From the IMG/VR virus record IMGVR_UViG_3300042887_000455, positions 1 through 45,943 of that record: a stretch of 45,943 nucleotides of DNA, one strand, 5' to 3'. The position numbers and the translations under genes are program-made. Positions within the stretch are counted from its first letter, which is position 1. Each line of letters begins with the position of its first letter. Source of the stretch: a virus. Under the pieces are notes generated by a model. The model made no database searches and was not told the origin of the DNA. It worked only from the letters and a program-made list of their open reading frames with translations. Shown here one piece after another: positions 6,884-45,943 of the stretch.

Positions 6884-6973
6884 TTTTCAATTTGTATAAA
6901 TAGTAATAGGTGTTACTCACGGTGTCTAGACCTAGTAACTCTAATCATTCTTCTATTAATTACAGGAACTAAT
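6884..6973 (+). promoter_or_regulatory. Late promoter and structured leader of the first homing endonuclease
   Basis: TATAAATA at 6895-6902 inside the shared block TTTTCAATTTGTATAAATAG. The leader then carries GTTACT...AGTAAC (pairing arms) and TAATAG...CTATTA, followed by AGGAA a few bases before the ATG at 6974. Almost the same leader precedes the HNH gene at 11169. Confidence 0.75.
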
Positions 6974-7759: not shown

Positions 7760-8858
7760 CGCCATCATCATTAATCAATTTTTCAAATAATTCAATAAAT
7801 GCCACTCTTGTGGATTCATCAAATCTGTTGACACAAAGTTCAACAGATTTCTTTTTATCTTTGAAGATTGAGAAAGACTTAACAATATGTATCAATCGAC
7901 GGGTAGTAATGTTTTCATCAATTCCTCCATCCGAATATGTTCTACGAATGGTATCAGCCCATCGAACTAAATCATTAGCAAAATCAGTATCCAAACAATC
8001 AAAATGATTCATTACATTAGTAATAATCTTTAACTCAATAGCTTGACCAGGATAATCTTGAACCATTGTTACTGCAAATCGTTCAAGGAATGCTTCATTT
8101 AAGATGTTAGTACCGATGTAACGACCATCTTCAGAGCCCTTACCTTTTGTATTAGCAGTAGCAAAGATATTGAAACCATCAGCAGGAATAATCATTTCAT
8201 TCTTCAACTTAAAGTAGAATGGTTTTCCTTCTAAAATAGGTTGTAAACAAAGTAAAGTATTTGCATTACCAGCATCAATCTCATCTAGTAACAACACATA
8301 ACCCATTCTCATAGCACGAACAATTGGACCTTCAATTACTTCAACATTACCATCAGTCAAAGTTTTGGTTCCAATCAACTGGTCTTCATCAGTCATACTG
8401 TTAAGATTAATTCGGATAATTGGACGATTTTGTTTAGCACATATCTGTTCAACTGTAGTAGATTTACCGTTACCAGTTGGTCCATAAATATATGTTGGAT
8501 AAAAGATTTTAGATTTGATTACTTTTTCAACATCTTTATGGATACCGAAAGGAACATAAGTAAGATCAGTTGGAGGTATCAAAGATTCTGAAATATCATT
8601 TGACAATTCAGTTTTAACGATTGTTAATTTAGGTTCAACATCTTTAACATTTCCAGTATATCCTGGTAAGGCATAAACACCTCTAGAAACAGCAACACAA
8701 TCAATATTATACCACTGAACAGGTTCGTTTATTTCTAATGATAATTTTTTAGAACACTCTAATGCTTGTTGACGAGTAACAATATTGGAAGAATTTGTAT
8801 CAGGATACATTTCAGCAATAAGACTTAATAATTTTAACTTTTTTTCACTTTTTTTCAT
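7746..8858 (-). CDS. MoxR/CobS-like AAA+ ATPase
   Basis: A 370-residue AAA+ protein of the MoxR/CobS class, often annotated as a cobaltochelatase subunit in phages. Walker A is GPTGNGKST (126-134), Walker B is LLLDEID (189-195) and sensor 1 is IFATANT (231-237), followed by NEAFLERFAV and the arginine-rich TTRRLIHIVKSF. The first ~100 residues are a separate N-terminal domain. The ATG at 8858 is chosen; a GTG five codons upstream lies within the leader duplicated at 14365-14417. It is the downstream partner of the VWA gene at 8931. MoxR proteins typically remodel a VWA partner, so the two probably form one machine. No evidence here links them to cobalamin synthesis. Confidence 0.88.
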   Translation of the reverse strand: MKKSEKKLKLLSLIAEMYPDTNSSNIVTRQQALECSKKLSLEINEPVQWYNIDCVAVSRGVYALPGYTGNVKDVEPKLTIVKTELSNDISESLIPPTDLTYVPFGIHKDVEKVIKSKIFYPTYIYGPTGNGKSTTVEQICAKQNRPIIRINLNSMTDEDQLIGTKTLTDGNVEVIEGPIVRAMRMGYVLLLDEIDAGNANTLLCLQPILEGKPFYFKLKNEMIIPADGFNIFATANTKGKGSEDGRYIGTNILNEAFLERFAVTMVQDYPGQAIELKIITNVMNHFDCLDTDFANDLVRWADTIRRTYSDGGIDENITTRRLIHIVKSFSIFKDKKKSVELCVNRFDESTRVAFIELFEKLINDDGVIEV

Positions 8859-8902
8859 AATATATTTTCTCACTTGGTTTATTTAATTTATAAGTTATTA
8901 TA
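8850..8902 (-). repeat. 53-bp duplicated promoter/leader, copy 1
   Basis: Identical over 53 bp to 14365-14417. On the minus strand it runs from the -10 TATAAT through TTATAAATTAAATAAACC and a GAGAAAA segment to ATGAAAAAA, so it covers the core promoter, leader and first codons. Confidence 0.95.
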
Positions 8903-8925
8903 ACCTATATGATTATCATTGTCAA
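8897..8925 (-). promoter_or_regulatory. Sigma70-type promoter for the AAA+ gene
   Basis: TTGACA (8920-8925), a 17-nt spacer and TATAAT (8897-8902) on the minus strand, matching the host consensus exactly. Confidence 0.75.
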
Positions 8926-11080: not shown

Positions 11081-11168
11081 TTTTCAATTTGTATAAATAG
11101 TAATAAGTGTTACTCACGGACGGCAATCCTAGTAACTCTAATCATTCTTACAATAATCAAGGACTATT
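11081..11168 (+). promoter_or_regulatory. Late promoter and structured leader of the HNH gene
   Basis: The shared block TTTTCAATTTGTATAAATAG (11081-11100) is followed by GTGTTACTCACGG, a variable stretch and CCTAGTAACTCTAATCATTC, nearly as at 6884-6973. GTTACT and AGTAAC can pair. AAGGAC precedes the ATG at 11169. Confidence 0.75.
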
Positions 11169-12588: not shown

Positions 12589-12660
12589 TATCACTAGAGT
12601 GAGTTGAACACTCATTCCCCGTATCTTTAGTACAGGATCCTACCATTAGAAGATAGCGAT
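12589..12660 (-). tRNA. tRNA with anticodon AAA (Phe by code)
   Basis: A 72-nt cloverleaf: acceptor ATCGCTA with TAGTGAT (one G-T), D arm TTCT-AATGGTA-GGAT with a weak first pair, anticodon arm CTGTA-CTAAAGA-TACGG, 5-nt variable loop, and T arm GAGTG-TTCAACT-CACTC. The anticodon reads AAA. A first-position A is unusual; the usual phage tRNA-Phe would have GAA here. Confidence 0.75.
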
Positions 12661-12668
12661 AATTAGGA

Positions 12669-12715
12669 GGAGATATCGCAGACTTTTACTGCACCATTAT
12701 TCAAAGTGTATCTCC
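12669..12715 (-). other. Small two-stem element between tRNAs
   Basis: GGAGATA (12669-12675) pairs with TATCTCC (12709-12715) over 7 bp, and inside GCAG...CTGC (12678-12681, 12689-12692) closes a 7-nt loop. It is too short for a tRNA and could be a remnant of one. Confidence 0.35.
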
Positions 12716-12774
12716 CGACCTTTGAAGTGTTTTCTTTCAAGTTTTTACCTTGAAGTTTGTTTAAATAAGCAGTG

Positions 12775-12859
12775 CTCTTAGGGAGGGACTCGAACCCCCA
12801 TAACATTTCTGTATACGTTTGATTAACAGTCAAATCTCTTACCATTAGAGTACCTAAGA
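12775..12859 (-). tRNA. tRNA-Asn (anticodon GTT) with long variable region
   Basis: Acceptor TCTTAGG with CCTAAGA, D arm CTCT-AATGGTA-AGAG, anticodon arm TTTGA-CTGTTAA-TCAAA (GTT) and T arm GGGGG-TTCGAGT-CCCTC. The variable region is 18 nt, long for Asn. The acceptor stem continues outward by 7 more pairs (GCAGTGC 12769-12775 with GCACTGC 12860-12866). The 5' end overlaps the stop codon of the upstream endonuclease gene. Confidence 0.85.
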
Positions 12860-13519
12860 GCACTGCTCACTTTTTACTGTTCTACCTTTATACCATCCAT
12901 CAAGTATAATATAATCTTTTTTAATCTTTTTATTTTCCTTTCCATTAGTAATCCACATAGTACCATATTGTGAATTTCCTTTTCCAGATTCTCTTAATGA
13001 ACTCGCAGCACCTATTTTTGCTTTTGTAACATCAGTATGAGTTTTTCCTTTAAAATGATTAATCAATCTTCCTGAACTATATCCTTCTTTTAAACTATTA
13101 GAAATAGATTTTATATATTCTTCATATCTTCCATTATCTCTCATATATTGTGAAGTGTTTTTTATTAAATTTTCTAAACCATATCCAGATTGACCATTTT
13201 TTCCGTAAATATTTTTACCGTTATCGTTAATATAATCCCATCCTCCATCTAAAGTTTCTTCTTTAAGATTCGCCCATTCTGAAGATTTTACTATATTGTT
13301 ATCATTACTGAATTGTAATGCGATATTCATACATTCTTGCTCATCATTATAATAACCTATGATTTCAGTAGAAACATCATAACCATGCTTATTGATATGT
13401 CTAGTCCAATATTTGCCAGAACCTTTATATGAATATGGATCTTTTGCAGTAGTTTTACCGAAATATTTTAAATTTGTTATATTATGCGTTTTAACATAAA
13501 GATATGTTGGTTTAAACAT
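12854..13519 (-). CDS. GIY-YIG homing endonuclease next to the tRNA cluster
   Basis: A 221-residue GIY-YIG enzyme. The N-terminal core reads YLYVKTHNITNLKYFGKT followed by YKGSGKYWTRHINKHG. SSEWANLKEETLDGGWDYI contains the likely catalytic Glu region, HFKGKTHTDVTKAKIGAAS is a NUMOD3-like DNA-binding segment, and it ends with SQYGTMWITNGKENKKIKK. This is the order seen in many phage Seg-like enzymes. Its final codons and TAG stop run into the extended acceptor stem of tRNA-Asn, and its transcript probably carries the whole tRNA cluster. It is related to the enzyme at 31850, sharing the IV.S.EWAN block. Confidence 0.88.
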   Translation of the reverse strand: MFKPTYLYVKTHNITNLKYFGKTTAKDPYSYKGSGKYWTRHINKHGYDVSTEIIGYYNDEQECMNIALQFSNDNNIVKSSEWANLKEETLDGGWDYINDNGKNIYGKNGQSGYGLENLIKNTSQYMRDNGRYEEYIKSISNSLKEGYSSGRLINHFKGKTHTDVTKAKIGAASSLRESGKGNSQYGTMWITNGKENKKIKKDYIILDGWYKGRTVKSEQCS

Positions 13520-13630
13520 TTTGACACCCGTATAAATAGATTTGTGTAGGACAGCTAGGTTAATCCGTAGCCGAGTTGGGAAATGCTAGTAACATTTCCC
13601 TAACTACATCTATTTATACAAATTGAAAAC
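13520..13630 (-). promoter_or_regulatory. Late promoter and leader of the tRNA-side endonuclease
   Basis: On the minus strand TTTTCAATTTGTATAAATAG is followed by a hairpin, GGGAAATG-ttacta-gCATTTCCC. GTATAAATAGAT near the start and ATCTATTTATAC near the end form a 12-bp inverted repeat, so a second TATAAATA (13531-13538) faces the other way on the plus strand. Confidence 0.7.
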
Positions 13631-13633
13631 TCA

Positions 13634-13867
13634 CTACTTAGTCATTGATTTCTTAAACAAAGAATCCAATTTATCATTCATTTCTTTTTCGCCTTTCGCA
13701 CAATGAGCAGTACACATTGAACCAGCTTTTACTGTAGATGCTTCAATCTGAGCAGCAGTAGAAGTTTTCAATAAATCTACTTGTGATTGAAGATCCGTAA
13801 CATCGCCATTGCTTGCACAACCCACAACTAACATTGCAACCATTGCTGCTAATAACATTTTTTTCAT
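13634..13867 (-). CDS. Lpp/OprI-like small outer membrane lipoprotein
   Basis: A 77-residue protein with a lipoprotein signal: MKK, a hydrophobic stretch, and the lipobox LVVGC with C17 as the acylated residue. The mature 61 residues begin CASNGDVTDLQSQVDLL, a coiled-coil start like Braun lipoprotein and OprI, and end in LDSLFKKSMTK, closing with the Lys that in Lpp is linked to peptidoglycan. C52 and C56 form a CTAHC motif absent from Lpp. The gene overlaps the 52-aa gene upstream (ATGA), so the two are coupled under an early-type promoter. Possible roles are envelope modification or blocking of superinfection; neither is shown. Confidence 0.85.
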   Translation of the reverse strand: MKKMLLAAMVAMLVVGCASNGDVTDLQSQVDLLKTSTAAQIEASTVKAGSMCTAHCAKGEKEMNDKLDSLFKKSMTK

Positions 13868-14097: not shown

Positions 14098-14373
14098 TTA
14101 CACATAAAACTCCTTAACAACTTCAAACCCTGTTTTAGTCAAACCAACTTTAGATTCCCTTCCTTCAGATGTATGCCAAACCAAATCAGCATTAAGTAAA
14201 CTTGTAAAAGTTCCTTTGTCTTGAGCAGTTTCTAAAATACCTGACGCCCAAGTAGTGCTTTCATTAGGATCATTTGATTCAAGTAATGCTTTAACATTAC
14301 CGTTGAAATTTGTATAATCATCTTCAACGATTTTAGACAGTAAGTTAAATTGTAATTCAGTAGGTTTTTTCAT
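14098..14373 (-). CDS. Hypothetical small protein, possible winged helix (91 aa)
   Basis: From the ATG at 14373 the protein begins MKKPTELQFNLLSKIVED and ends with ADLVWHTSEGRESKVGLTKTGFEVVKEFYV. The final part looks like a beta-hairpin wing followed by a helix, as in small winged-helix proteins, but there is no firm family match. Its promoter, leader and first three codons are identical to those of the AAA+ gene at 8858 (53 bp), so the two should be expressed together early. It lies between gene 46 and the lipoprotein operon. Confidence 0.75.
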   Translation of the reverse strand: MKKPTELQFNLLSKIVEDDYTNFNGNVKALLESNDPNESTTWASGILETAQDKGTFTSLLNADLVWHTSEGRESKVGLTKTGFEVVKEFYV

Positions 14374-14417
14374 AATATATTTTCTCACTTGGTTTATTTA
14401 ATTTATAAGTTATTATA
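14365..14417 (-). repeat. 53-bp duplicated promoter/leader, copy 2
   Basis: Identical to 8850-8902, including the -10 box, leader, ribosome binding region and ATGAAAAAA. The -35 regions outside the repeat differ. Confidence 0.95.
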
Positions 14418-14440
14418 CTATATCTGTAGAAGAAGTCAAA
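14412..14440 (-). promoter_or_regulatory. Sigma70-type promoter for the 91-aa gene
   Basis: TTGACT (14434-14439, 16-nt spacer) or TTTGAC (14435-14440, 17-nt spacer) with TATAAT (14412-14417) on the minus strand. Confidence 0.65.
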
Positions 14441-16161: not shown

Positions 16162-17214
16162 CTATAGAATTTCCTTGGCTTCTAAAAATAGACCTTTCAT
16201 AAAGGATTTAATTTTATCACGATTTGTATTATCAGCAACTGAATCTATATAGTTATTTAAAACTTCAGCAGTATCTTCAATACTTATTTGGGTTGTATCA
16301 ACAACCCCTTCTGAAAAGTCCGATAAATCTTCTAAAATTTTAATCTCATAGGTATTCGATTCATAAAGTTTCTTAAGGAACTGGTCGAACTTGTAGTAAT
16401 CTGTTTTCTTTACTACTACAATCTTTATATATTTTCGTTGAAACTGGGTAATATCAATAGTATCATAATCAACTAATTCATCATTGTATTCATGTCTAAT
16501 AAACATTGTATAAGGATTCTTAATAAATTCTGTTTGTCTTGTTTCGGTATCAAATATATGAAATCCTTTTTGGTCATTGTAATCCGACCAAGTCATCTCA
16601 TAAGGTGTTCCGACATAATGTATATTCTCTTTATCTGATTTTGTATGAAAATGACCAGAGTAAACTCCTTCATATTTGGCAAACAAGTTACCTGCTAATC
16701 CATCATGAGATTCCATACCCTTATACATTGAAAATCCTAGGATTTCAAAATGACCAAAACATAAATCAGATTTACTTTCTTTGATAAAATTAAAGGCATC
16801 TAATTCATTTTCTTTACAAATCCAAGGAATAATATCAATGGAAGTGTCATCAAACATAACTTTTGTTGGTTTGTCATACATAGTAATATTTGTAAACTCA
16901 CCTAGCAATAATCCAGTAGAATTTACCGATAAAGATTCACGGTAATACAAATCATGATTACCTAACAATGTATGAAGTTCAATACCAGCATCTTGTAAAG
17001 GTTGAAAGAAAAATCTTTTACTTTCTGCTAAGGTATTGAAGTTGATATATTTTCTTCTATCGAACATATCACCTAGTTGCCATACAACTTTTATATCGTT
17101 ATCTTTTAGGTAAGGAATAAAGATATTTGTATAAAAGTTATCCTGTAGAGCAAGGAAGTTAGGACTGTCATTCCTAACTCCATAATGAGTATCCCCAAGA
17201 ATTGCTATTTTCAT
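16162..17214 (-). CDS. 47: Recombination endonuclease subunit gp47 (Mre11/SbcD-like)
   Basis: A 350-residue calcineurin-like phosphoesterase nuclease. Metal-binding motifs are all present: GDTH (D8, H10), QLGDMFDRR (D49), GNHD (85-88), a histidine in FGHFE near 155, and SGHFH (186-190). It forms the nuclease part of the gp46/gp47 complex. Its ATG overlaps the gp55 stop in an ATGA arrangement, giving translational coupling. Confidence 0.97.
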   Translation of the reverse strand: MKIAILGDTHYGVRNDSPNFLALQDNFYTNIFIPYLKDNDIKVVWQLGDMFDRRKYINFNTLAESKRFFFQPLQDAGIELHTLLGNHDLYYRESLSVNSTGLLLGEFTNITMYDKPTKVMFDDTSIDIIPWICKENELDAFNFIKESKSDLCFGHFEILGFSMYKGMESHDGLAGNLFAKYEGVYSGHFHTKSDKENIHYVGTPYEMTWSDYNDQKGFHIFDTETRQTEFIKNPYTMFIRHEYNDELVDYDTIDITQFQRKYIKIVVVKKTDYYKFDQFLKKLYESNTYEIKILEDLSDFSEGVVDTTQISIEDTAEVLNNYIDSVADNTNRDKIKSFMKGLFLEAKEIL

Positions 17215-17744
17215 TCTGAAATCGCATCAAGTGTTTGACAAGTCATTACAACTTCTTTTGGAACTTTTACTTTTCTAACTGTATTAGGAAGTTCTGCATT
17301 ACTAAATTCTGCAAGAAATTCACGATATGAATTTACAAATTCTTGATCATCATCCTGTTCTTGAAGTTCAAAAACAATATTACCCACAGATTGTATAATC
17401 TTATGTTTAAGTTGATATTGTTGTTTTTCTTTGGCAATTCTTCTTAGGTATGCAAAGTATATGATTTGTGTATAATAGGAAAATGGATTAGATGATTTTT
17501 CAGGATTAAATTTATCGAAATACTTGATACAGTTTTCTATACCATCGCATATCATTTCATCTTTAAAGGAATAACCATTGAAGTTACCTTTATTAGCAAG
17601 GTTATTGGCAATCTTAAGAATACATTCACCAAGATAGTTCGAGATTTGAGGAATTGGTAATCCATTCTCTTCCGCTTTCTTTAAAAGTTCTTTTCTTTCA
17701 ACTATTGCTACAAAAAAATCTTTATTGGAAACATATTCAGCCAT
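17211..17744 (-). CDS. 55: Late-transcription sigma factor gp55
   Basis: A 177-residue sigma-family protein that directs host RNA polymerase to TATAAATA late promoters, with gp45 as activator in T4. Recognised from NLANKGNFNGYSFKDEMICDGIENCIKYFDKFNPEKSSNPFSY, split here as the KDEMICDGIENCIKYF helix and the NPFSYYTQIIYFAYLRRI helix, which match the sigma region 2 of T4 gp55 (YTQSWKQEMIADGIE...NPHAYITQACFNAFVQRI). The ATG at 17744 follows AGGTGA; a GTG three codons upstream is less likely. The many TATAAATA boxes in this window are its expected targets. It has an early-type promoter at 17776-17804. Confidence 0.92.
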   Translation of the reverse strand: MAEYVSNKDFFVAIVERKELLKKAEENGLPIPQISNYLGECILKIANNLANKGNFNGYSFKDEMICDGIENCIKYFDKFNPEKSSNPFSYYTQIIYFAYLRRIAKEKQQYQLKHKIIQSVGNIVFELQEQDDDQEFVNSYREFLAEFSNAELPNTVRKVKVPKEVVMTCQTLDAISE

Positions 17745-17775
17745 AACAATCACCTATTAATTTAACATATAATAT

Positions 17776-17804
17776 ATTATAATATAAAACCATCTAAAAG
17801 TAAA
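17776..17804 (-). promoter_or_regulatory. Early-type promoter for the 55-47-46 operon
   Basis: TTTACT (17799-17804), a 17-nt spacer and TATAAT (17776-17781) on the minus strand. The spacer holds one arm of the inverted repeat 17784-17830. Confidence 0.7.
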
Positions 17805-17840: not shown

Positions 17841-18028
17841 AAAAAGTCTGGAACATTCTATTTTTCTTAATTTTCTTGTTTTTATTTCTTTACAATTCAA
17901 TATCTTACAATCACTTTTTTTCATTAAAAATGATAATGTGTGTAAAGTTACTACCTAAATTTCTTAATTTGATTTAAATCGACTTATTTTATAATAATAT
18001 TTTATAAATCAATAAGTTGGTAATAATA
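17841..18028. other. Gene-free region between the divergent promoters and uvsW
   Basis: No gene of credible length on either strand; the only plus-strand frame of note is 15 codons from an ATG near 17940. ACTTATT...AATAAGT (about 17980-18016) can form a hairpin with an inner TTATAA repeat. It could specify an untranslated plus-strand RNA. Confidence 0.4.
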
Positions 18029-18090
18029 TTGACTTTTACTGATTTTGATGATATACTTTATCTGTAGTCCGGTTAAGTAGATTTATAGAT
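18029..18090. repeat. 62-bp exact repeat, copy 1 (two-way regulatory element)
   Basis: Identical to 33839-33900. On the plus strand it contains TTGACT, a 17-nt spacer and TATACT. On the minus strand it contains CTATAAATC, a late-promoter-like box. It lies directly after the uvsW stop and before the gp55 operon. Confidence 0.95.
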
Positions 18091-18095
18091 AAAGA

Positions 18096-19583
18096 TTATT
18101 TTAAGTCTACTTGGTGAAGTTTCAAATCAAATTGTTCTTCAGTATAAGTTTTTACTCTTTCGGCAAAATGTGAAAGAGTATGATTCTTAGAAGATTTCCA
18201 AGAAAGGTCATCAGCAATATCATATAAAATACAAGACGATTTTCCTTCCCTCAATCTTAATCCTCTACCTATTGATTGAAGATTCCTAATCTTAGACTTT
18301 GTTGGACTAGAAAAAATAATGTTTTCAATTGAAGGGATATTAACACCAGTGCTAAATGTGCCAAAGGAAGCAACAATAATTGCATTAGTTTCATTCTCAC
18401 ATTCCTTTCTTATATATTCTCTTTCTTCAGCATTAACTTCACCAGATACAAAGAATAACTTTCTACCATCACCTAATCTATCTTGTATCATTTTATGAAG
18501 AATCTTTCCATGTTTGGCTACAAATTGAAATAGAACCAAAGTATTACCATCTTGTTTCAATGCAAGATTAGTTATAAATTTATTTCTTCCTTCATGGGAT
18601 ACAAGAAAATCCATCTCTTCTTGATACTTCATACCACTATATATCTTTCTCAATTCTTCTGGATATTTCAATAGTAGACATTTGATATCAAGTTGAACTA
18701 CCCGATTAGAATCCATCAACTGTCTAGTTGTAATTACACGATGAACTGGACCCATTATTCCTTCAAGTTGAAGTTGATTAACTTGAGAGTTATCTATTGT
18801 TCCAGTAGTTCCAATTCTATATTTAACATCAGTCATATTCTCAAACATACCTGTTAAAGAAGATGCTTTGGCAAGATGACATTCGTCTGAAAAGACCACA
18901 TCGAATTGGTTACACCAGTCCTTCGATAATTTAAAGGTAGATTGCCAAGTTGTAATCAAAACATTAGATGTGAAATCTTTAGATAATCCAGAATATAATT
19001 TTTGACAATTATTAACAGTAGACCAACCATTACCAGTTGAATAGTCCTCAAAATCAGAATACAACTGTTCTACTAATGAAGTTGTCGGTACAATAATAAT
19101 GCAAGTCAATCCTTTAGCAAGAAACCATCTTAATAAGGTATAGATTATCAGAGATTTACCAGATGCTGTCGGACTCAATAGGACTGTTCTACAATTATTC
19201 AGTGCTTTATGAATAGCATCTACTTGATAATCTCTTATCTCAATTGGATTACCTTTTGAACAAGGATTAATTACTTTAGCAAATCCTTCTACTTGTTTAG
19301 TTGTAATTCCCATATCATATTCTATATCATCAGCAATTTCCAACTCATAATCATTTCTTGAGGCAAATTCTTTTACATATTCTATGAGACCTGCGTATAG
19401 TTTTTTAGTTTGTAGGTTATAAAGTCTCGCCTTGCCATCCCAGATTTTAGCCTTAAACTTAGGCATAAATTTAGCACCAGGAACTGGAAAAGTAAAGAAG
19501 TCTGATAGTTCTTGTTCAGTGGATTTATCAGTAAAGATACGGACAAATGCCTCATCCATCTTTTCAACTTTTATTAGTGTCAC
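18096..19583 (-). CDS. uvsW: UvsW-type DNA helicase
   Basis: A 495-residue SF2 helicase that unwinds branched DNA and R-loops and helps shift T4 from origin to recombination-dependent replication. The N-terminal domain begins MTLIKVEKMDEAFVRIF, matching the T4 start, which supports the GTG at 19583 placed right after the uvsY stop with GGTGG as ribosome site. Helicase motif I is SPTASGKS (137-144), motif II is DECH (233-236), motif III is GTTGT and motif VI is QSIGRGLR. It pairs with uvsY, as in T4. Confidence 0.96.
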   Translation of the reverse strand: MTLIKVEKMDEAFVRIFTDKSTEQELSDFFTFPVPGAKFMPKFKAKIWDGKARLYNLQTKKLYAGLIEYVKEFASRNDYELEIADDIEYDMGITTKQVEGFAKVINPCSKGNPIEIRDYQVDAIHKALNNCRTVLLSPTASGKSLIIYTLLRWFLAKGLTCIIIVPTTSLVEQLYSDFEDYSTGNGWSTVNNCQKLYSGLSKDFTSNVLITTWQSTFKLSKDWCNQFDVVFSDECHLAKASSLTGMFENMTDVKYRIGTTGTIDNSQVNQLQLEGIMGPVHRVITTRQLMDSNRVVQLDIKCLLLKYPEELRKIYSGMKYQEEMDFLVSHEGRNKFITNLALKQDGNTLVLFQFVAKHGKILHKMIQDRLGDGRKLFFVSGEVNAEEREYIRKECENETNAIIVASFGTFSTGVNIPSIENIIFSSPTKSKIRNLQSIGRGLRLREGKSSCILYDIADDLSWKSSKNHTLSHFAERVKTYTEEQFDLKLHQVDLK

Positions 19584-24481: not shown

Positions 24482-25284
24482 TTTGGCATCTTTAAGAATT
24501 TACCTTTGTGAGCAATTCCCTCTGCTTCGTTTTTATCAGTAGTAACTTCATACTTAGATCCTTCTTTGTTCTTTTTAACATAGTTCCAAGAGTGATGTTT
24601 TCCATCAACATTAGAGAAATGTTGAGCACCGCCATGGTCTGAACTATTATGGTTAGCAATCAATTGACTAGCAGTAACTGCTTCTTCAAGTTCAATTTCT
24701 TCTGTATAATATCTTGTTGGTAATCCTTTTTTGGCTCGGTCATTATTGGTTTTTCCTCTCAGGGTATCTATAGCTCGTTCTTTACCATCAGTTCTATTAT
24801 TGGCTGTCTTTCTATTTTTGTCACGTTCGTCTGAACCTTCAGGAGCTTTGTATAAATCCTTCAATGCATTACTCTGTGAACTCCTAGCCTTACCAATATA
24901 AGAACTTAACGTCTTTCTGCTTAATTCATCTAATTGTTCAAAGTCTTCGGACATCATGAAATCTTCTAGTTCCTCAACTGAATAATCTTCAAGAGTAAAT
25001 TCTTCTTTGGTTAATGCTTTATTAACTCGTTGGGTATTTTGGGCACTTTTCATTCTCAATTTATATTCTTTATCAGGATCAACTCCTTTTTTTTCATCAT
25101 CGGCTTGTTTTTTTCTTGCATCATCAAATACACTTTCTTTAAACATAGATTGTGCAATTTCAGTTCTTCTAGATTCCATTGCAATAGAAATCTTATCAGT
25201 AATTGCTTCTTGAAATGCAGTTTCAATATCAGTAGCTCTACCTGAAATGATTGCATCAACTAAATTTATTGTAAAATCTGTCAT
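24478..25284 (-). CDS. Prohead core protein (gp67/gp68-like N-terminus)
   Basis: A 268-residue charged protein. The first ~50 residues, INLVDAIISGRATDIETAFQ then KISIAMESRRTEIAQSMF, match the helical start common to small prohead core proteins of T4-like phages. The rest is rich in Lys, Glu and Asn, with EEFTLEDYSVEELEDFMM and RKTLSSYIGKARSSQSNALK. The His-rich C-terminal region (HNSSDHGGAQHFSNVDGKHH) is extra compared with T4 gp67 or gp68. It lies between portal and protease, as gp67 and gp68 do in T4. Confidence 0.7.
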   Translation of the reverse strand: MTDFTINLVDAIISGRATDIETAFQEAITDKISIAMESRRTEIAQSMFKESVFDDARKKQADDEKKGVDPDKEYKLRMKSAQNTQRVNKALTKEEFTLEDYSVEELEDFMMSEDFEQLDELSRKTLSSYIGKARSSQSNALKDLYKAPEGSDERDKNRKTANNRTDGKERAIDTLRGKTNNDRAKKGLPTRYYTEEIELEEAVTASQLIANHNSSDHGGAQHFSNVDGKHHSWNYVKKNKEGSKYEVTTDKNEAEGIAHKGKFLKMPK

Positions 25285-25292
25285 CTTATTTC

Positions 25293-26765
25293 CTATTGTT
25301 GTTGGTTTGGATCAACAGGAGCAGGTTCTGCTTTCATCTGTTTATCGATTTCTTTAATATCGTCTTCAGTTTGTAATAATACATTTCTTCTAACCCATTC
25401 TACTGAAAAGTATCTTCCAACAAATGGATCAATTGCATTTAAAGTTGCAAGTCTATTTTGAATAACCTCAGCATCTTTTAATTCAGAATAATGGTTATCT
25501 TGTTGAAACTTATATTTTATACATTCTAATATTTCTTCCCATTCATCTTCACGAATAATACCTTTCGCTATTAGTTGAATTCTTAATATATTAGAAAATA
25601 TACCAGAAAATTTATTTCTTAATCTATTAATAAATTTTGAGAATTTAACTTCATCTCTTGTAATAGTAGATGATTGACCTATCGAAAATCCAACATCTGG
25701 TCTTAATCTAGATATCGGTACATTCAAAGATTGAAACAATTTATTTTGAAAATAATTGATATCTTCAATTTGTCCTAGATTTTGTGCACCATCTAATGTA
25801 GTAATTTCCGTTCCTTTACCACCTTCTCTTCGTGGCATCCAAAAATCTTCCATCATAGAAAGATGTTTCTTATCGTCTTTTATTTCACCAGTAGTTGCAT
25901 CATAAACCAGTTTATTTCTAAACTTATTCATAATGTCTTGTACATACTGTTCTGCTTTTAATTTTGGTAAATTACCTACATCAATATAAAATATCCTACG
26001 TTCAGGTGCTCTTGAAACACGATAAATTACTAAAGCATCCTCAATCATTTTTAGTTGATTAGTTGGTTTAATTGCTTTATGAAGATAACTTAAAACAATA
26101 CCTGTATTTTGATCTAATAAACCTGAATTACAATATGCAACAGTATCTAAACTTAATTTAACACCTTGAGTAGTACCTGTTGTTAATCCTTTATCATTAT
26201 AGATATAATATTCATCAACTCCAGTTGTGACTTCAACACCAGTAGGAGTTTTAGATTTCTTTATAGATTTTACTTTTCTAATTTTTTGTGGTTCAATATA
26301 TCTTAATTCAGATATACCTGTTTTCTTTGTTGCTTCATCTATCAAAATATTAAAATAAAGTCTTCCATCGATATACCAAGATCTAAACAGGTCATGACCT
26401 TTATCAGAAAACTTCATCAAATTTAAGATTATTTTAAATTCATCCCTGATTTTATTTTTAATAGAATCTGAAATTTTTGAATCATCTAGATTGATTTCCA
26501 CAATAGGATTTACGCCATCGCTAACAATTGCTTCATTAACTATGTCTTCAACTGCGGAATCACAATCTGGATAATTACAAGTTTCCCTATACTTGCGTAT
26601 AAGTTCATTTTCATTTTTTAAACTTCCATCAAGATCAATAGAAATTCCGTAATAATTTGCTGCAGATACCAAAGCAGAACCATCATCCTGAGGTGGCGAA
26701 ACAACTGTCGCCACCTGCTTAGGATTCAATTTCTTTTTGGTTAAATTAAGTCCAAAAATTTCCAT
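25293..26765 (-). CDS. 20: Portal vertex protein gp20
   Basis: A 490-residue dodecameric portal subunit through which DNA is packaged. Signature blocks are RKYRETCNYPDCDSAVEDIVNEAIV, read as YPDCDSAVEDIVNEAI near residue 70, then WYIDGRLYFNILID, APERRIFYIDVGNLPK, DFWMPRREGGKGTEI and SIGQSSTITRDEVKFSKFI. These match gp20 of T4 and cyanophages. Length is slightly below T4 (524). Confidence 0.97.
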   Translation of the reverse strand: MEIFGLNLTKKKLNPKQVATVVSPPQDDGSALVSAANYYGISIDLDGSLKNENELIRKYRETCNYPDCDSAVEDIVNEAIVSDGVNPIVEINLDDSKISDSIKNKIRDEFKIILNLMKFSDKGHDLFRSWYIDGRLYFNILIDEATKKTGISELRYIEPQKIRKVKSIKKSKTPTGVEVTTGVDEYYIYNDKGLTTGTTQGVKLSLDTVAYCNSGLLDQNTGIVLSYLHKAIKPTNQLKMIEDALVIYRVSRAPERRIFYIDVGNLPKLKAEQYVQDIMNKFRNKLVYDATTGEIKDDKKHLSMMEDFWMPRREGGKGTEITTLDGAQNLGQIEDINYFQNKLFQSLNVPISRLRPDVGFSIGQSSTITRDEVKFSKFINRLRNKFSGIFSNILRIQLIAKGIIREDEWEEILECIKYKFQQDNHYSELKDAEVIQNRLATLNAIDPFVGRYFSVEWVRRNVLLQTEDDIKEIDKQMKAEPAPVDPNQQQ

Positions 26766-30737: not shown

Positions 30738-30745
30738 TATTTATA
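30738..30745 (-). promoter_or_regulatory. Late promoter for gene 18
   Basis: TATAAATA followed by CTACTAATG on the minus strand, close to the T4 late consensus. The leader to the start at 30644 is about 90 nt long. Confidence 0.8.
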
Positions 30746-30758
30746 TAAATTGAAAAGT

Positions 30759-31853
30759 CTAAAAATTATAAAGCACCTCAGAATCTTGTCCATCATTATA
30801 AAAACCAAATGGAGTTAATTCATCTTCTATTTGTCTAATCTGATTTTGATAGATCATATGTCTAAGATCTACATTGTTTAATTCTTTAAAATAAGGTTGA
30901 GTTACTAACCAACCAAATAATACTAATGTCATAACTAAATCATCATGATAACCATTATCTGCTGCAAATGAACCTTTAACTTCTATAAATGTAGAAAGTT
31001 CAGATATAATATCTGCATCAGGTATCAATAATTTAGATTCTTCAATTAACATCTTAAGTGAAGAACATCCAATTCGTTTTACTTTCTTATCTGTTATGAT
31101 ACCTACTTGTGACTTTCCTGAACCAAATCCACCAGTAATAGTTTGTCCAGTCACACTTCTATTTATAAATAAAATGTTTTCATACTCTAATTCATTATAA
31201 AGAATGTATCCTACTTGTTCACCCACATTACCTTCAATAAGAATATTTGCACCATTATATTCCATTCCTACTTTATATATAACATTTGGAAATAATAATG
31301 GACTAATAGTATTATTTTTATATTTTGCAACAACTCTATATGGTGTTTCTGTTATATCAATTACTGTAAATGCAGAATAATCTCCACCTACACCTTTTGA
31401 TACATCAACAATCATTGCATAAACCCTATTAATCATAGGTCTTTCATATACATCTAAACTATCTTTAGAATAAATTATAGGGGATGCTGAAAGTCTGGCT
31501 AGTGCATCACTATTTATTAGTGTTGAAGATGAACCGAGGAAGTCGCAATTGTGTGATATTAATCCATCAGTTAGATATAAATTCCCATTAGATACATTAA
31601 TTGGATCATATACATCAACGATTCCGTTAGGAATAATATCTATGATTACCTTGTTAGATAAACTTTGTCCTATTTCCAAACAAGATGTTGTTATCTCTAT
31701 ATCATCATAGACAAACTTATGGTTTGGTGTTGTGACTATATTAGTATCGTCTGAAAATAATATTTTAATAGTTTCTTTGTTATTTTTAACAATACCTTCA
31801 AATCCTTGAAATCCAGATGGCGTTAAAATTTCAAATCTATTATTTTGTCTCAT
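30759..31853 (-). CDS. 17: C-intein fused to the C-terminal half of large terminase gp17
   Basis: A 364-residue precursor. Residues 1-102 are the C-terminal part of a split intein and residues 103-364 are the nuclease half of the terminase. The terminase part starts CDFLGSSSTLIN, the segment that in unbroken gp17 follows the end of the ATPase domain. RNase H-fold nuclease acids are present: IVDVSKGVGGD (D150, D158), ILIEGN (E207) and HDDL (D304, D305), the counterparts of T4 D401, E458 and D542. It should become functional only after trans-splicing to the product of 32753-33637. Its ATG overlaps the TGA of the homing endonuclease gene, so the two are translationally coupled. Confidence 0.93.
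   Translation of the reverse strand: MRQNNRFEILTPSGFQGFEGIVKNNKETIKILFSDDTNIVTTPNHKFVYDDIEITTSCLEIGQSLSNKVIIDIIPNGIVDVYDPINVSNGNLYLTDGLISHNCDFLGSSSTLINSDALARLSASPIIYSKDSLDVYERPMINRVYAMIVDVSKGVGGDYSAFTVIDITETPYRVVAKYKNNTISPLLFPNVIYKVGMEYNGANILIEGNVGEQVGYILYNELEYENILFINRSVTGQTITGGFGSGKSQVGIITDKKVKRIGCSSLKMLIEESKLLIPDADIISELSTFIEVKGSFAADNGYHDDLVMTLVLFGWLVTQPYFKELNNVDLRHMIYQNQIRQIEDELTPFGFYNDGQDSEVLYNF
31548..31853 (-). other. C-terminal split intein segment (IntC, 102 aa)
   Basis: Contains the intein block B TxxH pattern (TTPNHKF near residue 45), block F (VDVYDPINV near 80) and block G ending LISHN, followed by Cys as the +1 residue. The terminal His-Asn and +1 Cys are those needed for branch resolution. 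The whole closely resembles the AceL-TerL C-intein as I recall it, in which the N-part is short and the C-part is about 104 residues. Confidence 0.93.
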
Positions 31854-32698
31854 AATTTATCCATAAGTAAAATTTTCCTATCTAATACGTTTAGAATAGT
31901 TTTAGATGTAACTCCAAATTCTACACAATATACTTTAGCAAACGCATTTTTATAATGAAAAAATTTACCATTCTTAGCAATATAATCATATGGTATATGA
32001 AGCAATGGTACAGTATCATATAAATCTAATATTTTTTTATATAATTGAAGCCTTATATTTTGTGTTTCTTCTGTTAGATTAATATTATTACCCTTTCTGA
32101 TATTAGATTGCAATAGTTTAGTTTCATTGCTAACATTTCTTCCTCTAAGTTTTATATTAGGAACACCTTTTTTAGCAGCACTAATCTTATCACCAGTCTC
32201 TTTAGGTCTTTTCATTCCAGTATGAAGATTTAACTCTTTGGGTAAATTTAATGCCCAATGACAAGCACTAGAAATCTTCTTTTGCTCTTCTGTATATTTT
32301 CTACCCTTTGAGATAGAAACCCATTCTCCTCCCATAACTTCGATAGCATCTGTTTTTAGTTGCCTAACTTCATTGGTAACGACATTTCTATATGAAGCCT
32401 TTCCTTTATTGGTTCCCTTTGGAGAACCGCCACCTATACCATTTTCTGGTATTTTATTAGCCCACTCATCAGATTCTACAATATCAAATTTTTTAGAAAA
32501 CCACAAACAAAATCTAGTACAAACATCTTGGCGTTCAAATTCCCAAATTTGTAAATTTATTACATATTTGCCATTTTCAGATAAGTGTTTCTTCCAATCA
32601 ACACCACTACCGTTATATTTTTCAGGGTTTTTCTTAGTTTTACAAAAATATTTTAATTTTGTATTTGTATGTTGTTTAACACAAATATATATAGACAT
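31850..32698 (-). CDS. GIY-YIG homing endonuclease inside the fractured terminase locus
   Basis: A 282-residue free-standing enzyme between the two terminase halves. The N-terminal GIY-YIG core reads YICVKQHTNTKLKYFCKT then YNGSGVDWKKHLSENG, related to the enzyme at 12854 (LKYFGKT, YKGSGKYWTRH). The Gly of the second motif is Cys here. IVESDEWANKIPENGIGGG is the likely catalytic Glu segment. Then comes the module NKGKASYRNV...GGEWVSISKGR, also present twice in the HNH enzyme at 11169, a NUMOD3-like HTGMKRPKETGDKISAAKKG, and a C-terminal region with a helix-turn-helix look. AAGGAAG precedes the ATG at 32698. Fractured intein genes with an endonuclease gene between the halves are known from metagenomes. 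Confidence 0.88.
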   Translation of the reverse strand: MSIYICVKQHTNTKLKYFCKTKKNPEKYNGSGVDWKKHLSENGKYVINLQIWEFERQDVCTRFCLWFSKKFDIVESDEWANKIPENGIGGGSPKGTNKGKASYRNVVTNEVRQLKTDAIEVMGGEWVSISKGRKYTEEQKKISSACHWALNLPKELNLHTGMKRPKETGDKISAAKKGVPNIKLRGRNVSNETKLLQSNIRKGNNINLTEETQNIRLQLYKKILDLYDTVPLLHIPYDYIAKNGKFFHYKNAFAKVYCVEFGVTSKTILNVLDRKILLMDKL

Positions 32699-32752
32699 GC
32701 TGTTCTTCCTTCTAAGAATAGTTCTGATGGATGTTGACGCATCGCGATCAGT

Positions 32753-33637
32753 TTAATTTATTAAATTATATGCTTCTTCTATAGTCGTATTTATAATATT
32801 CCCAGTTAATATATCCCTTATAGTAATCTGAGTTTTTCCTCCAACACACAAAATTTCCTGTGTGAATTTGAGGTCACCAAGTAGTTCTTTTTGTTGTGCT
32901 GCCCATGCTTCATCTCTACTGGGATGTTCCCAATAATTTACTCTAACAGGAACAAACCCATTTATATTTTGTTCTGCTTCATTCCAAAACTTCCAAAAAT
33001 GATTGTATCCAAGTGGAGTAGACGTTAGAATAATCTTAGTAGTTTTACCAGAAGAAATTGTAGGATAGGTAGATGTAAAGAAATCTTCAGCAACATTATT
33101 GGGAATGATTGAAGTTTCATCTATATAAAGTACATTTACAGATTTACCACGAATACCAGATGCGGAAGTAGCAGATGTAAATACTTTTGAACCATTTTCT
33201 AATTCAATATCGCCCTTGTTCCAAGTTTTAACTCCTTGTTGAAGAAAACTTGGAAGATATTCATACATTAATTGATAACGAGATAAAATTTCTCTTGCAG
33301 CAACTGCCTTATTAGCAAGAATTGCAACAGTTTTATTATCATTGAACAATGTATAATAAAGAAGATAAGCAGCAACAACTTGTGTTTTACCACTTTGCCG
33401 AGGTTGCATTGATACAACACGATTTTCTTTATGGATTGTAGATATAAATCTTTCTTGATAATCAAATAAATGAAAATCAATAAGACCTAAATCTAAAGAA
33501 ATAATTTTACAATAATTTCTAATAAAGTAAATTGGATCATTCTTACATAAAATATATTCGGCAACCTGATCCTTAGTAAACTGAATAGGAGTATTGGTTG
33601 CCTTTAAATTTATGTTTGCATTATAAAATAAACTCAT
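32753..33637 (-). CDS. 17: N-terminal half of large terminase gp17 fused to an N-intein
   Basis: A 294-residue precursor. Residues 1-263 are the packaging ATPase domain: MQPRQSGKTQ (Walker A, 79-85), an adenine-binding and coupling region, VLYIDETSIIPN (Walker B and catalytic Glu, 172-174) and ILTSTPLGYNHFWKFW (motif III-type). It ends LKFTQEIL, where intact terminases continue into the C(D/E)FLGSS segment. Residues 264-294 are a short N-intein beginning with Cys. Joined to the C-half without inteins, the product is 525 residues, a normal size for gp17 of such phages. No separate full-length copy of terminase is present in the window. Confidence 0.95.
   Translation of the reverse strand: MSLFYNANINLKATNTPIQFTKDQVAEYILCKNDPIYFIRNYCKIISLDLGLIDFHLFDYQERFISTIHKENRVVSMQPRQSGKTQVVAAYLLYYTLFNDNKTVAILANKAVAAREILSRYQLMYEYLPSFLQQGVKTWNKGDIELENGSKVFTSATSASGIRGKSVNVLYIDETSIIPNNVAEDFFTSTYPTISSGKTTKIILTSTPLGYNHFWKFWNEAEQNINGFVPVRVNYWEHPSRDEAWAAQQKELLGDLKFTQEILCVGGKTQITIRDILTGNIINTTIEEAYNLIN
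32756..32848 (-). other. N-terminal split intein segment (IntN, 31 aa)
   Basis: Begins with Cys1 directly after LKFTQEIL and holds CVGGKTQITIRD, the block A pattern, then TIEEAYNLIN before the stop. It is unusually short; classical split inteins have about 100 residues on the N side. The split just after block A is the atypical type seen in AceL-TerL. Confidence 0.92.
32788..32795 (-). promoter_or_regulatory. Late-promoter box inside the N-intein coding region
   Basis: TATAAATACGACTATAG on the minus strand, about 90 nt before the endonuclease start. It could give late transcription of the endonuclease and the C-half. Confidence 0.5.
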
Positions 33638-33823
33638 TTACGTTTTTGGTTTTAGTTTTCTCATAACTTTAGTAATAGCCAAACTTGAACCTGATAACCT
33701 TTTTTTAACTTTTTCAGTATTATCAGTATCCATTAGTTTTTTTCTTTCTTCAGCACTCTTATCAATATACTTGTTTAGAGTTCCTTTCGATAATTCTATT
33801 AGAAAATCCTTAAATGTTATCAT
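33638..33823 (-). CDS. Small basic protein before the terminase (61 aa)
   Basis: A 61-residue basic protein beginning MITFKDFLIELSKGTLNKYI, a start seen in many short phage proteins, and ending VMRKLKPKT. It directly abuts the terminase N-half. The position is that of gp16, the small terminase subunit of T4, but it is much shorter (gp16 has 164 residues) and shows no recognisable DNA-binding domain, so I do not call it gp16. It follows the 62-bp regulatory repeat, which should drive it together with the terminase. Confidence 0.7.
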   Translation of the reverse strand: MITFKDFLIELSKGTLNKYIDKSAEERKKLMDTDNTEKVKKRLSGSSLAITKVMRKLKPKT

Positions 33824-33838
33824 TTTTATTCCTTTTTC

Positions 33839-33900
33839 TTGACTTTTACTGATTTTGATGATATACTTTATCTGTAGTCCGGTTAAGTAGATTTATAGAT
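33839..33900. repeat. 62-bp exact repeat, copy 2 (two-way regulatory element)
   Basis: Identical to 18029-18090. Minus strand: CTATAAATC late-like box pointing at the 61-aa and terminase genes. Plus strand: TTGACT, 17 nt, TATACT pointing antisense into gene 15, whose stop codon begins at its last base. Confidence 0.95.
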
Positions 33901-34646
33901 TAAAACTCTCCTAACCATTCTTCTGATATAACTGTTTCAGTTACTTCATCACCTATTGCTGTATAGTTCACTAATGGTTCAGTAAAAGTTTTATTTCCTT
34001 CTATATTTGAATGAACAGTAGTGATAATTTTCCTATTAGAAATACCACCAAACAGATTTATTTTTATAGTAAAAGTTAATGTATGAGTGACAAATCTTCT
34101 TGTTTGAAAATCTCCTTCATAATCATCTTGAACAGAAACACTATTTAGTATTATAGGAATATCTTGTACAACTTCCATATCTGGAATAGCATTAATAGAT
34201 AAAGTATATTCGGGTGTAAATGTAGGTAAAATCTGTTCTAATATTTGAAGACCATCTTCTTGTGTTTTTGTTAGAATATAAAGACTAATATCTATATTAT
34301 AAGGAACAGGACTTTGCATTGTAGTATAAGAATTAGAACCCTCAACATGAGAAATCTTTTGCATCTTATTGATTTTCCTAGAGGAATCATAAGAATAACC
34401 TGTTATTTCAAATGCCATTCTAGGAAGAGTAGTATATGTATTGTTTTCTAAATTTGGATCTCCATCTAATCTTTGAATCCATTTTTCTTTATTAGAATAA
34501 GCAAGAGGTATCTGAAGTCTTTGGATAGTTTCACCATTAACAGAATCCCCTTGTTTACGGTCTATATAGATATTAGAAAACAAACTACCGAATGCTACGA
34601 TAGTTTTTCTAATAATTCCGTGATAGAAAACATTGTTATTTAACAT
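33900..34646 (-). CDS. 15: Tail sheath stabiliser and completion protein gp15
   Basis: A 248-residue protein that caps the tail and binds the last sheath ring. GSLFSNIYIDRKQGD, RLQIPLAYSNKEKWIQRL, TLPRMAFEITGYSYDSSRKIN, VPYNIDISLYILTKTQEDGLQILEQILPTFTP and RRFVTHTLTFTIKI follow the block order of T4 gp15 (GDLFSNI, IPITYASKEHF, TILPRINLHLVDFSY, IYELSIFTRYEDDMFQIVEQILPYFQP). Slightly shorter than T4 (272). Confidence 0.93.
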   Translation of the reverse strand: MLNNNVFYHGIIRKTIVAFGSLFSNIYIDRKQGDSVNGETIQRLQIPLAYSNKEKWIQRLDGDPNLENNTYTTLPRMAFEITGYSYDSSRKINKMQKISHVEGSNSYTTMQSPVPYNIDISLYILTKTQEDGLQILEQILPTFTPEYTLSINAIPDMEVVQDIPIILNSVSVQDDYEGDFQTRRFVTHTLTFTIKINLFGGISNRKIITTVHSNIEGNKTFTEPLVNYTAIGDEVTETVISEEWLGEF

Positions 34647-45145: not shown

Positions 45146-45943
45146 TTATATATTTATTAGAGTTTTGATTACCTTATAAACTGTTACAGCATTGGTAGGA
45201 GTAGTAAGAAGTCTTAAAGTACCACCAGATATATCAGCATCAAAAGTTGCTAAAGAAACACCTGTGTAAATATCTGCATATTGACCCATATAAGCAGTAG
45301 TACCATCGTGTATAATTGTAATAGTACAAGAATGATAAGAAGTGCTTGAAGTCATTTGAATATCATATTTAACAGAACGATATACAGTAGAAGAATTGGT
45401 ATCAATAACTTGACTTGCAGTAGTGGCAGATGTAGTTAAAGTAGCAGAACCAATCGCACCATTGTTTATTATGATATTTCCAAATAATGTAGTTGAAACT
45501 GTAGCAGAAGTTCCTATAACTGTAGTATTAGCACCAGCACCAGTTGCATTATATCCAATTACAGTTTCGTTTGTTACATTGTCAGCAGATGCTTTAGTTA
45601 AATAACCAAGATAAGTTGAATTATTAACTATAGTTAATGCAGTTACACCATCAGCAATATATCTTCCAGCGCTCGTACCCACAGCTGAGTTTTGGACACC
45701 CGTTGTGTTGCTCTGGAGTGCACTCACACCCATAGCTGAGTTGTTGGCACCCGTTGTATTGCTAAGGAGTGCAGCTTGACCCACAGCTGAGTTGAAGTAA
45801 CCCGTTGTGTTGGACTGGAGTGCAGTCCGACCCATAGCTGAGTTGAAGTAACCCGTTGTATTGCTAAGGAGTGCACTTACACCCATAGCTGAGTTTTGGA
45901 CACCCGTTGTGTTGCTCTGGAGTGCACTCCGACCCATAGCTGA
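45146..45943 (-). CDS. Fibre-like protein with NTTG repeats (start beyond the window)
   Basis: At least 265 codons; the frame is open to the window edge (…SAMGRSALQ), so the N-terminus is missing. Six or more 17-residue NTTG repeats are followed by DGVTALTIVNNSTYLGYLTK and NVTNETVIGYNATGAG, which parallel the 1087-aa fibre gene. A non-repetitive beta-rich end includes TSSTSYHSCTITIIHDGTTAY. The repeat DNA uses more G and C at third positions than the neighbouring genes. Confidence 0.8.
   Translation of the reverse strand, partial: SAMGRSALQSNTTGVQNSAMGVSALLSNTTGYFNSAMGRTALQSNTTGYFNSAVGQAALLSNTTGANNSAMGVSALQSNTTGVQNSAVGTSAGRYIADGVTALTIVNNSTYLGYLTKASADNVTNETVIGYNATGAGANTTVIGTSATVSTTLFGNIIINNGAIGSATLTTSATTASQVIDTNSSTVYRSVKYDIQMTSSTSYHSCTITIIHDGTTAYMGQYADIYTGVSLATFDADISGGTLRLLTTPTNAVTVYKVIKTLINI
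45151..45158 (-). promoter_or_regulatory. Late-promoter-like box for paralog 2
   Basis: AATAAATA on the minus strand, one base from consensus, followed by a leader with GGCAG-ATACTAA-CTGCC. The leader segment AAGCCTTAAGGATAGGGAAT is identical in both paralogs. Confidence 0.45.

Follow-up and report, generated by a model that had tools for sequence, protein, structure and literature searches.

An exactly duplicated 62-bp element in a T4-like phage and its putative family of low-copy early promoter cassettes

The two copies and their surroundings

Why would a phage carry the same 62 bases at two places, each time directly behind a gene that runs the other way? In the window (the whole stretch of DNA analysed here, 45,943 nucleotides), positions 18029-18090 and 33839-33900 agreed at 62 of 62 bases, as the preliminary description had claimed, and on either side the sequences diverged abruptly. 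Two exact copies of this length, spaced 15.8 kb apart, are far above the chance expectation. The placement between minus-strand genes was likewise confirmed: copy 1 separates uvsW from gp55, and copy 2, which overlaps gp15 at the final base of its stop codon, separates gp15 from a 61-aa ORF that is followed by the N-part of the terminase gene. Both copies contain the plus-strand sigma70-type promoter reported earlier, TTGACT-17-TATACT, directed antisense toward uvsW and gp15, and this assignment is supported because the hexamers and the 17-nt spacing are kept in relatives despite a changing spacer sequence. The features concerned are the following.

17211-17753, minus strand: gp55-like late sigma factor gene (phrog_234, 8.9e-50)
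17776-17804, minus strand: gp55's own early-type promoter, TTTACT-17-TATAAT, directly before gp55 (pattern scan)
17897-18028, plus strand: upstream part of the approximately 200-bp cassette, common to the ClpP and primase sites and absent at copy 2
18029-18090, plus strand: element copy 1, putative early-promoter/leader cassette antisense to uvsW, identical to copy 2 at 62/62 bases
18029-18034, plus strand: -35 hexamer TTGACT of copy 1; all orthologues and 17 antisense copies have TTKACW
18052-18057, plus strand: -10 hexamer TATACT of copy 1, with a 17-nt spacer and TGn upstream; TATNNT in all copies
18058-18090, plus strand: predicted initial transcribed region (leader) of copy 1; TATCTGTRGTNSGGTTAAGTAGAT is conserved across sites and phages
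18096-19583, minus strand: uvsW-like helicase gene, whose 3' end faces copy 1 (phrog_16, 4.6e-102)
32753-33637, minus strand: N-part of the terminase large subunit (phrog_5989, PF03237)
33638-33823, minus strand: 61-aa ORF between copy 2 and terL, conserved in L227, L231, L234 and L238 (56-83%)
33839-33900, plus strand: element copy 2, antisense to gp15 and abutting its stop codon, identical to copy 1 at 62/62 bases
33839-33844, plus strand: -35 hexamer TTGACT of copy 2 (window-wide promoter pattern scan)
33862-33867, plus strand: -10 hexamer TATACT of copy 2 (window-wide promoter pattern scan)
33900-34646, minus strand: gp15-like tail sheath stabilizer gene, whose 3' end faces copy 2 (phrog_227, 2.8e-74)

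That one copy might be an assembly artefact is unlikely: both junctions match the gene order of relatives that have the element at the same place. A search with the exact 62-mer matched no other record. Further copies, which the preliminary description had proposed to look for, were found in related phages and on a contig that overlaps the window, G017 (IMGVR_UViG_3300042887_001390, 47.8 kb). The first 127 bases of this contig (G017:C1:1-127) are identical to window positions 45817-45943, as is commonly seen where two contigs of one assembly adjoin, and on this evidence G017 continues the same phage genome. The break between the two falls in a tail-fibre-like repeat region. The G017 copy lies before a ClpP-like protease gene and has the leader GTAGTCCGG, the same as in the window copies. 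The element is thus intergenic and repeated, with two copies in the window and one on the overlapping contig.

Similarity around copy 1 extends beyond the 62 bp, since an alignment of 197 bp between window positions 17897-18090 and G017 positions 34583-34390 showed 83% identity; L222, L220 and G021 matched similarly. This upstream similarity of the uvsW, ClpP and primase sites indicates that the full cassette measures about 200 bp, and the copy at the gp15 site consists of promoter and leader only. Upstream of the promoter, at 17890-18020, the window has repeated CAATAASTTAYAA-like boxes about 110-120 bp apart, which are common to the ClpP and primase sites and are possible regulator sites; searched for as iteron-like boxes across the contigs, they gave only scattered matches.

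The terminase gene next to copy 2 has a feature of its own. At 30759-33637 (minus strand) a split intein breaks up the large subunit: its N-part has the end FTQEILC-VGGKTQITIRDILTGNIINTTIEEAYNLIN*, a separate ORF at 31850-32698 resembles the window's homing-endonuclease-like ORFs, and the next terminase ORF opens with an intein C-part ending ISHN, followed by CDFLGSS and the nuclease domain (PF17289). The gene is unbroken in relatives such as L231 and G005.

A promoter and leader at recurrent sites

The pattern TTKACW-N17-TATAMT occurred nine times in the whole window, against 0.37 expected from shuffles. Seven of these matches fell on the minus strand; the two 62-bp copies accounted for both matches on the plus strand. 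Judged by this pattern, the promoter in the two copies is of the phage's own early type, opposed to the surrounding genes. To gather relatives at the uvsW site we used UvsW and gp55 similarity, and the element was present between these genes in five diverged phages (L003/G001, 89%; L186/G007, 84%; L004, 79%; L206/L243; and G005). Their hexamers read TTGACT/TATACT, TTTACT/TATACT, TTTACT/TATAAT and TTGACA/TATTCT, with a spacer of exactly 17 in all. Between genomes the hexamers were about 88-90% identical and the spacer about 52%, but its length was always 17 nt. It is therefore well supported by sequence conservation that the 62-bp sequence is a promoter; it would be active as an early promoter, with transcription predicted to start near 18064 in copy 1 and near 33874 in copy 2.

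The family consensus is TTKACTTTT, a 17-nt spacer, TATAMT and the leader WTATCTGTRGTNSGGTTAAGTAGAT. When viral contigs were scanned for the -10 box with the leader, 25 stretches were recovered, and a promoter pattern that did not require the full leader gave 26; the 22 stretches common to both scans imply that promoter and leader go together. Contigs of 8-68 kb held one or two copies each when one mismatch to the pattern was allowed, and a profile search gave much the same. From these counts, the 62-bp element looks as if it belongs to a low-copy family, with about four near-identical early promoters in each genome. Members of the family come from a clade of uncultured T4-like phages, and the cultured phages and bacterial genomes searched gave no copy.

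Four main sites recurred: uvsW/gp55, gp15/terL, the interval between a 134-aa coiled-coil gene and the DNA primase gene, and the region before the ClpP-like protease gene. The gp15/terL site is also occupied in G005/L207, L227, L231, L234 and L238, which means that copy 2 is not peculiar to this phage. In the outgroup phages (65-71% gp15 identity; L026-L033), terL directly follows gp15 without the element, and the 61-aa ORF was found neither in these phages nor in G005. G005 is 77% identical to the window phage in uvsW and 72% in gp15. A recent two-copy duplication unique to the window phage was rejected, both sites being occupied in G005 and others. The earlier proposal that the identity reflects copying or gene conversion is supported, but purely recent copying does not explain everything, as G005 has its own version at both sites.

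Antisense copies at the 134-aa/primase site were present in L220, L223, L224, L226 and L228; L232 and L245 have the cassette in the opposite orientation, reading toward primase, and G005 lacks it at this site. Before the ClpP-like gene the copies are sense (L222/G017, L230, L235), with the ribosome site about 70-80 nt after the -10, and in L221 a sense copy, likewise with a ribosome site, precedes a 79-aa ORF. Measured from the start of the -10, the opposing gene's stop codon was 31-53 nt away at most antisense sites, with the exception of two gp15 loci (72 and 114 nt) and of G005 at uvsW. L237/L240 (3300047277) represents a ClpP site in which a homing-endonuclease-like gene is inserted between the cassette and the ClpP gene; the assembly breaks at this cassette. 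In a more distant phage two copies (G020:C1:9751 and 35004) are alike for about 190 bp upstream as well, as if the copied stretch had been longer and had taken in a divergent gene start.

No structured RNA was detected at the element. RNA folding gave a weak stem only together with the copy-1 flank (z -2.6), while z was about 0 for the element alone and -0.5 for copy 2. The leader folds gave no stable structure, the element has no T-run of an intrinsic terminator, and a search for a conserved terminator of an antisense RNA found none. In Rfam only tRNAs reached the gathering score, with nothing credible at the 62-bp element. A stem-loop RNA or a known RNA family was rejected on these grounds.

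Likeness of the copies within one genome

We compared 23 copies from eight phages, taking the leader as 26 nt. The phages were grouped by metagenome sample, except for copies linked by a common contig or an overlap (the window with G017, the G005 pair, and L221 with L224). The mean identity of the leader was 96.4% for copies from separate sites within a genome, 82.7% for copies from one site in different genomes and 83.7% where both differed; the corresponding values for the spacer were 71%, 51% and 52%. Label permutations gave 0/10,000 for the leader and 0/10,000 for the spacer, and after removal of G005 and two copies of the window phage (gp15, primase) the counts were 0/10,000 and 8/10,000, respectively. 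In the flanks the effect was weak upstream (-70 to -30, 148/5,000) and was not seen downstream.

The clearest single case was G005, whose two copies have 86 of 99 bases in common; elsewhere in the set its version was found only in L229, an identical copy of the G005 gp15 element. Leader variants change in step within one genome (GTGGTGGGG four times, GTGGTAGGG three times). The linked copies of L221 and L224 differ in spacer and leader. Taken from these comparisons, concerted evolution, in which the copies are homogenised within each genome, is well supported, and gene conversion would be the homogenising process. The within-genome likeness suggests that the copies are overwritten by one another and matter to the virus.

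Possible roles and known counterparts

We consider it probable that these are low-copy early sigma70-type promoter/leader cassettes, sense at ClpP and antisense at three sites, which recombination or gene conversion homogenises. Each cassette would comprise a promoter and a conserved transcribed leader of about 26 nt, with an upstream control region of about 130-200 bp at three of the four sites, and host RNA polymerase would start there early after infection. At the ClpP-like site, sense transcription would yield an mRNA whose 5' UTR and ribosome site are normal. At the three antisense sites, two of them in the window, the cassette is placed directly after the stop codon of an opposite-strand gene, and polymerase starting 20-30 bp past the gene end would transcribe antisense into uvsW, gp15 or the 134-aa gene. 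The antisense RNA that would be made there, or the head-on transcription, could be useful by opposing minus-strand read-through and restraining uvsW and gp15 expression until late. In T4, UvsW is a late product whose absence early on is important for origin replication, and against this background an early promoter directed antisense behind uvsW is plausible. Recombination or gene conversion may keep the copies alike in this highly recombining type of phage, the exact 62-bp identity being a recent conversion tract.

Homogenisation alone could nevertheless keep the hexamers at the antisense sites without selection there, the orientation near the primase gene is reversed in L232, and some genome groupings rest on the metagenome sample. 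An alternative that we regard as possible but rather doubtful is that the cassettes at antisense sites are neutral leftovers of cassette shuffling, which have no role, are harmless and are overwritten by the functional ClpP copy. Cassette gains, at the primase site in comparison with G005 and at the gp15 site in comparison with the outgroups, would fit it, as would the L232 reversal and the identity tracts common to sites across phages (L220 equals the window over the first 39 nt). However, two antisense sites are each occupied in five to six diverged phages in the same orientation and at nearly the same stop-codon distance, and it would be surprising for a strong antisense promoter against essential genes to be kept without benefit. 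It seems very unlikely that the leader acts as RNA, a late minus-strand read-through complementing the ClpP mRNA leader in trans and silencing it, or the reverse. The leader is the best-kept part within genomes (96%) and changes in step among the copies of one genome, and read-through across copy 2 is expected, since the interval from 37449 to that copy has no late-type box; but only about 18 contiguous bases are common to the ClpP leader and the window copies, the leader is about 60 nt from the ribosome site, and the promoter hexamers, which such a model does not need, are kept too. An unlikely reading in the same direction is a sense/antisense timing switch, with the copies kept identical so that the early ClpP leader matches its complements in late transcripts; the picture of one such switching module at about four fixed sites, antisense at three and aimed at uvsW, gp15/terminase and replication genes, is equally speculative.

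The preliminary description had also proposed a late promoter on the minus strand, and the box CTATAAATC is indeed present in both copies with a core TATAAAT match. That it recruits gp55-RNA polymerase to transcribe gp55 and terL is highly improbable: TATAAATC occurs in 4/17 antisense copies and is absent from 13/17, L003 for example having CTACTAATC, and gp55 has its own early-type promoter. The T4-type late -10 box is TATAAATA, as in the window's late-type boxes before genes, whereas the element has TATAAATC, without their final A. This reading was rejected since the box is not conserved, and with the late promoter unsupported, it is unlikely that the element simply co-regulates the gp55 and terminase operons. 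There is only a slim chance that the element is another protein-binding site (for replication origin, packaging or recombination) with promoter-like hexamers by chance, or a bidirectional promoter. The AT-rich upstream region with its repeated CAATAASTTAYAA-like boxes and the adjoining of terL by one site may speak for the former, but the gp15 site lacks these boxes, the sense copies stand at normal promoter distance from ribosome sites and the spacing of exactly 17 is kept. For the latter there is a weak minus-strand hexamer pair in the window, TTAACC-17-TATCAT, but its -10 is not kept among relatives (by eye), and the bidirectional promoter was rejected for this reason.

The nearest known kind, beside which we set the element following a secondary description, is the PeSLs, whose original papers are reportedly those of Arbiol et al. 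from 2010 and Comeau et al. from 2014. According to that secondary description, PeSLs are mobile early-promoter/stem-loop regulatory cassettes of T4-type phages, short and intergenic, repeated within genomes and linked with shuffling (PMC4503421). The element resembles them in having, as a sequence, a conserved early promoter (TTKACW-17-TATAMT, like the window's other early-type promoters), and gene shuffling would be consistent with the homogenisation of the copies, the unoccupied sites and the additional ORF at the gp15 site, although no gene swap between cassettes was seen. Unlike PeSLs it has no stem-loop or terminator and instead has a conserved transcribed leader, and it lies antisense behind stop codons at fixed sites, with copies homogenised within each genome. 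Since a stem-loop was looked for and not found, we class the element not as a PeSL but as a variant of that kind. With T4 early (host sigma70) promoters it shares the -35/-10 spacing, near-consensus hexamers and sense copies before early-type genes, but it differs in its extended common leader, low copy number and antisense placement. Antisense transcription at T4 gene 32 (Belin et al. 1987, cited in PMC3014915) provides a precedent in a T4-type phage, though other genes are involved and the element is a cassette repeated at several syntenic sites. Bidirectional bacterial promoters with a symmetric -10 are described in PMC10268837 and PMC12825309; the TATA core of the element is near-symmetric, and the window sequence allows a weak reverse promoter to be drawn, but in contrast to those promoters its reverse -10 is not conserved in relatives.

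If antisense early promoters do act at these conserved positions, they would give the phage a simple hold on late functions (uvsW, tail completion, packaging) and antisense transcription a defined role in T4-like phages. Concerted evolution of a dispersed promoter family would document in nature how frequently conversion of short sequences takes place between distant phage sites, and it cautions that a 60-bp repeat in a viral metagenome can be genuine. For tests, the 17-nt spacing and the leader variants of the individual genomes offer ready-made natural variants.

Other parts of the window also contain repeated or apparently transferred stretches. A second regulatory stretch is duplicated at positions 6884-6960 and 11081-11157 (86% over 77 bp) and consists of a late-type box TATAAATA and a leader before two plus-strand homing-endonuclease-like genes; the same box with an upstream TTTTCAATTT recurs at 13610-13636 and near 30745. 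A third duplicated stretch, 8850-8911 and 14365-14426 (94% over 62 bp), spans part of an early-type promoter, the 5' UTR and the start codon of two minus-strand genes. Finally, window positions 12659-13867 are 98.2% identical to G005 positions 24825-26033, while most of the neighbouring DNA is 75-84% identical. This segment contains a homing-endonuclease gene (12854-13519) and a tRNA, which together with the high identity makes a recent transfer likely.
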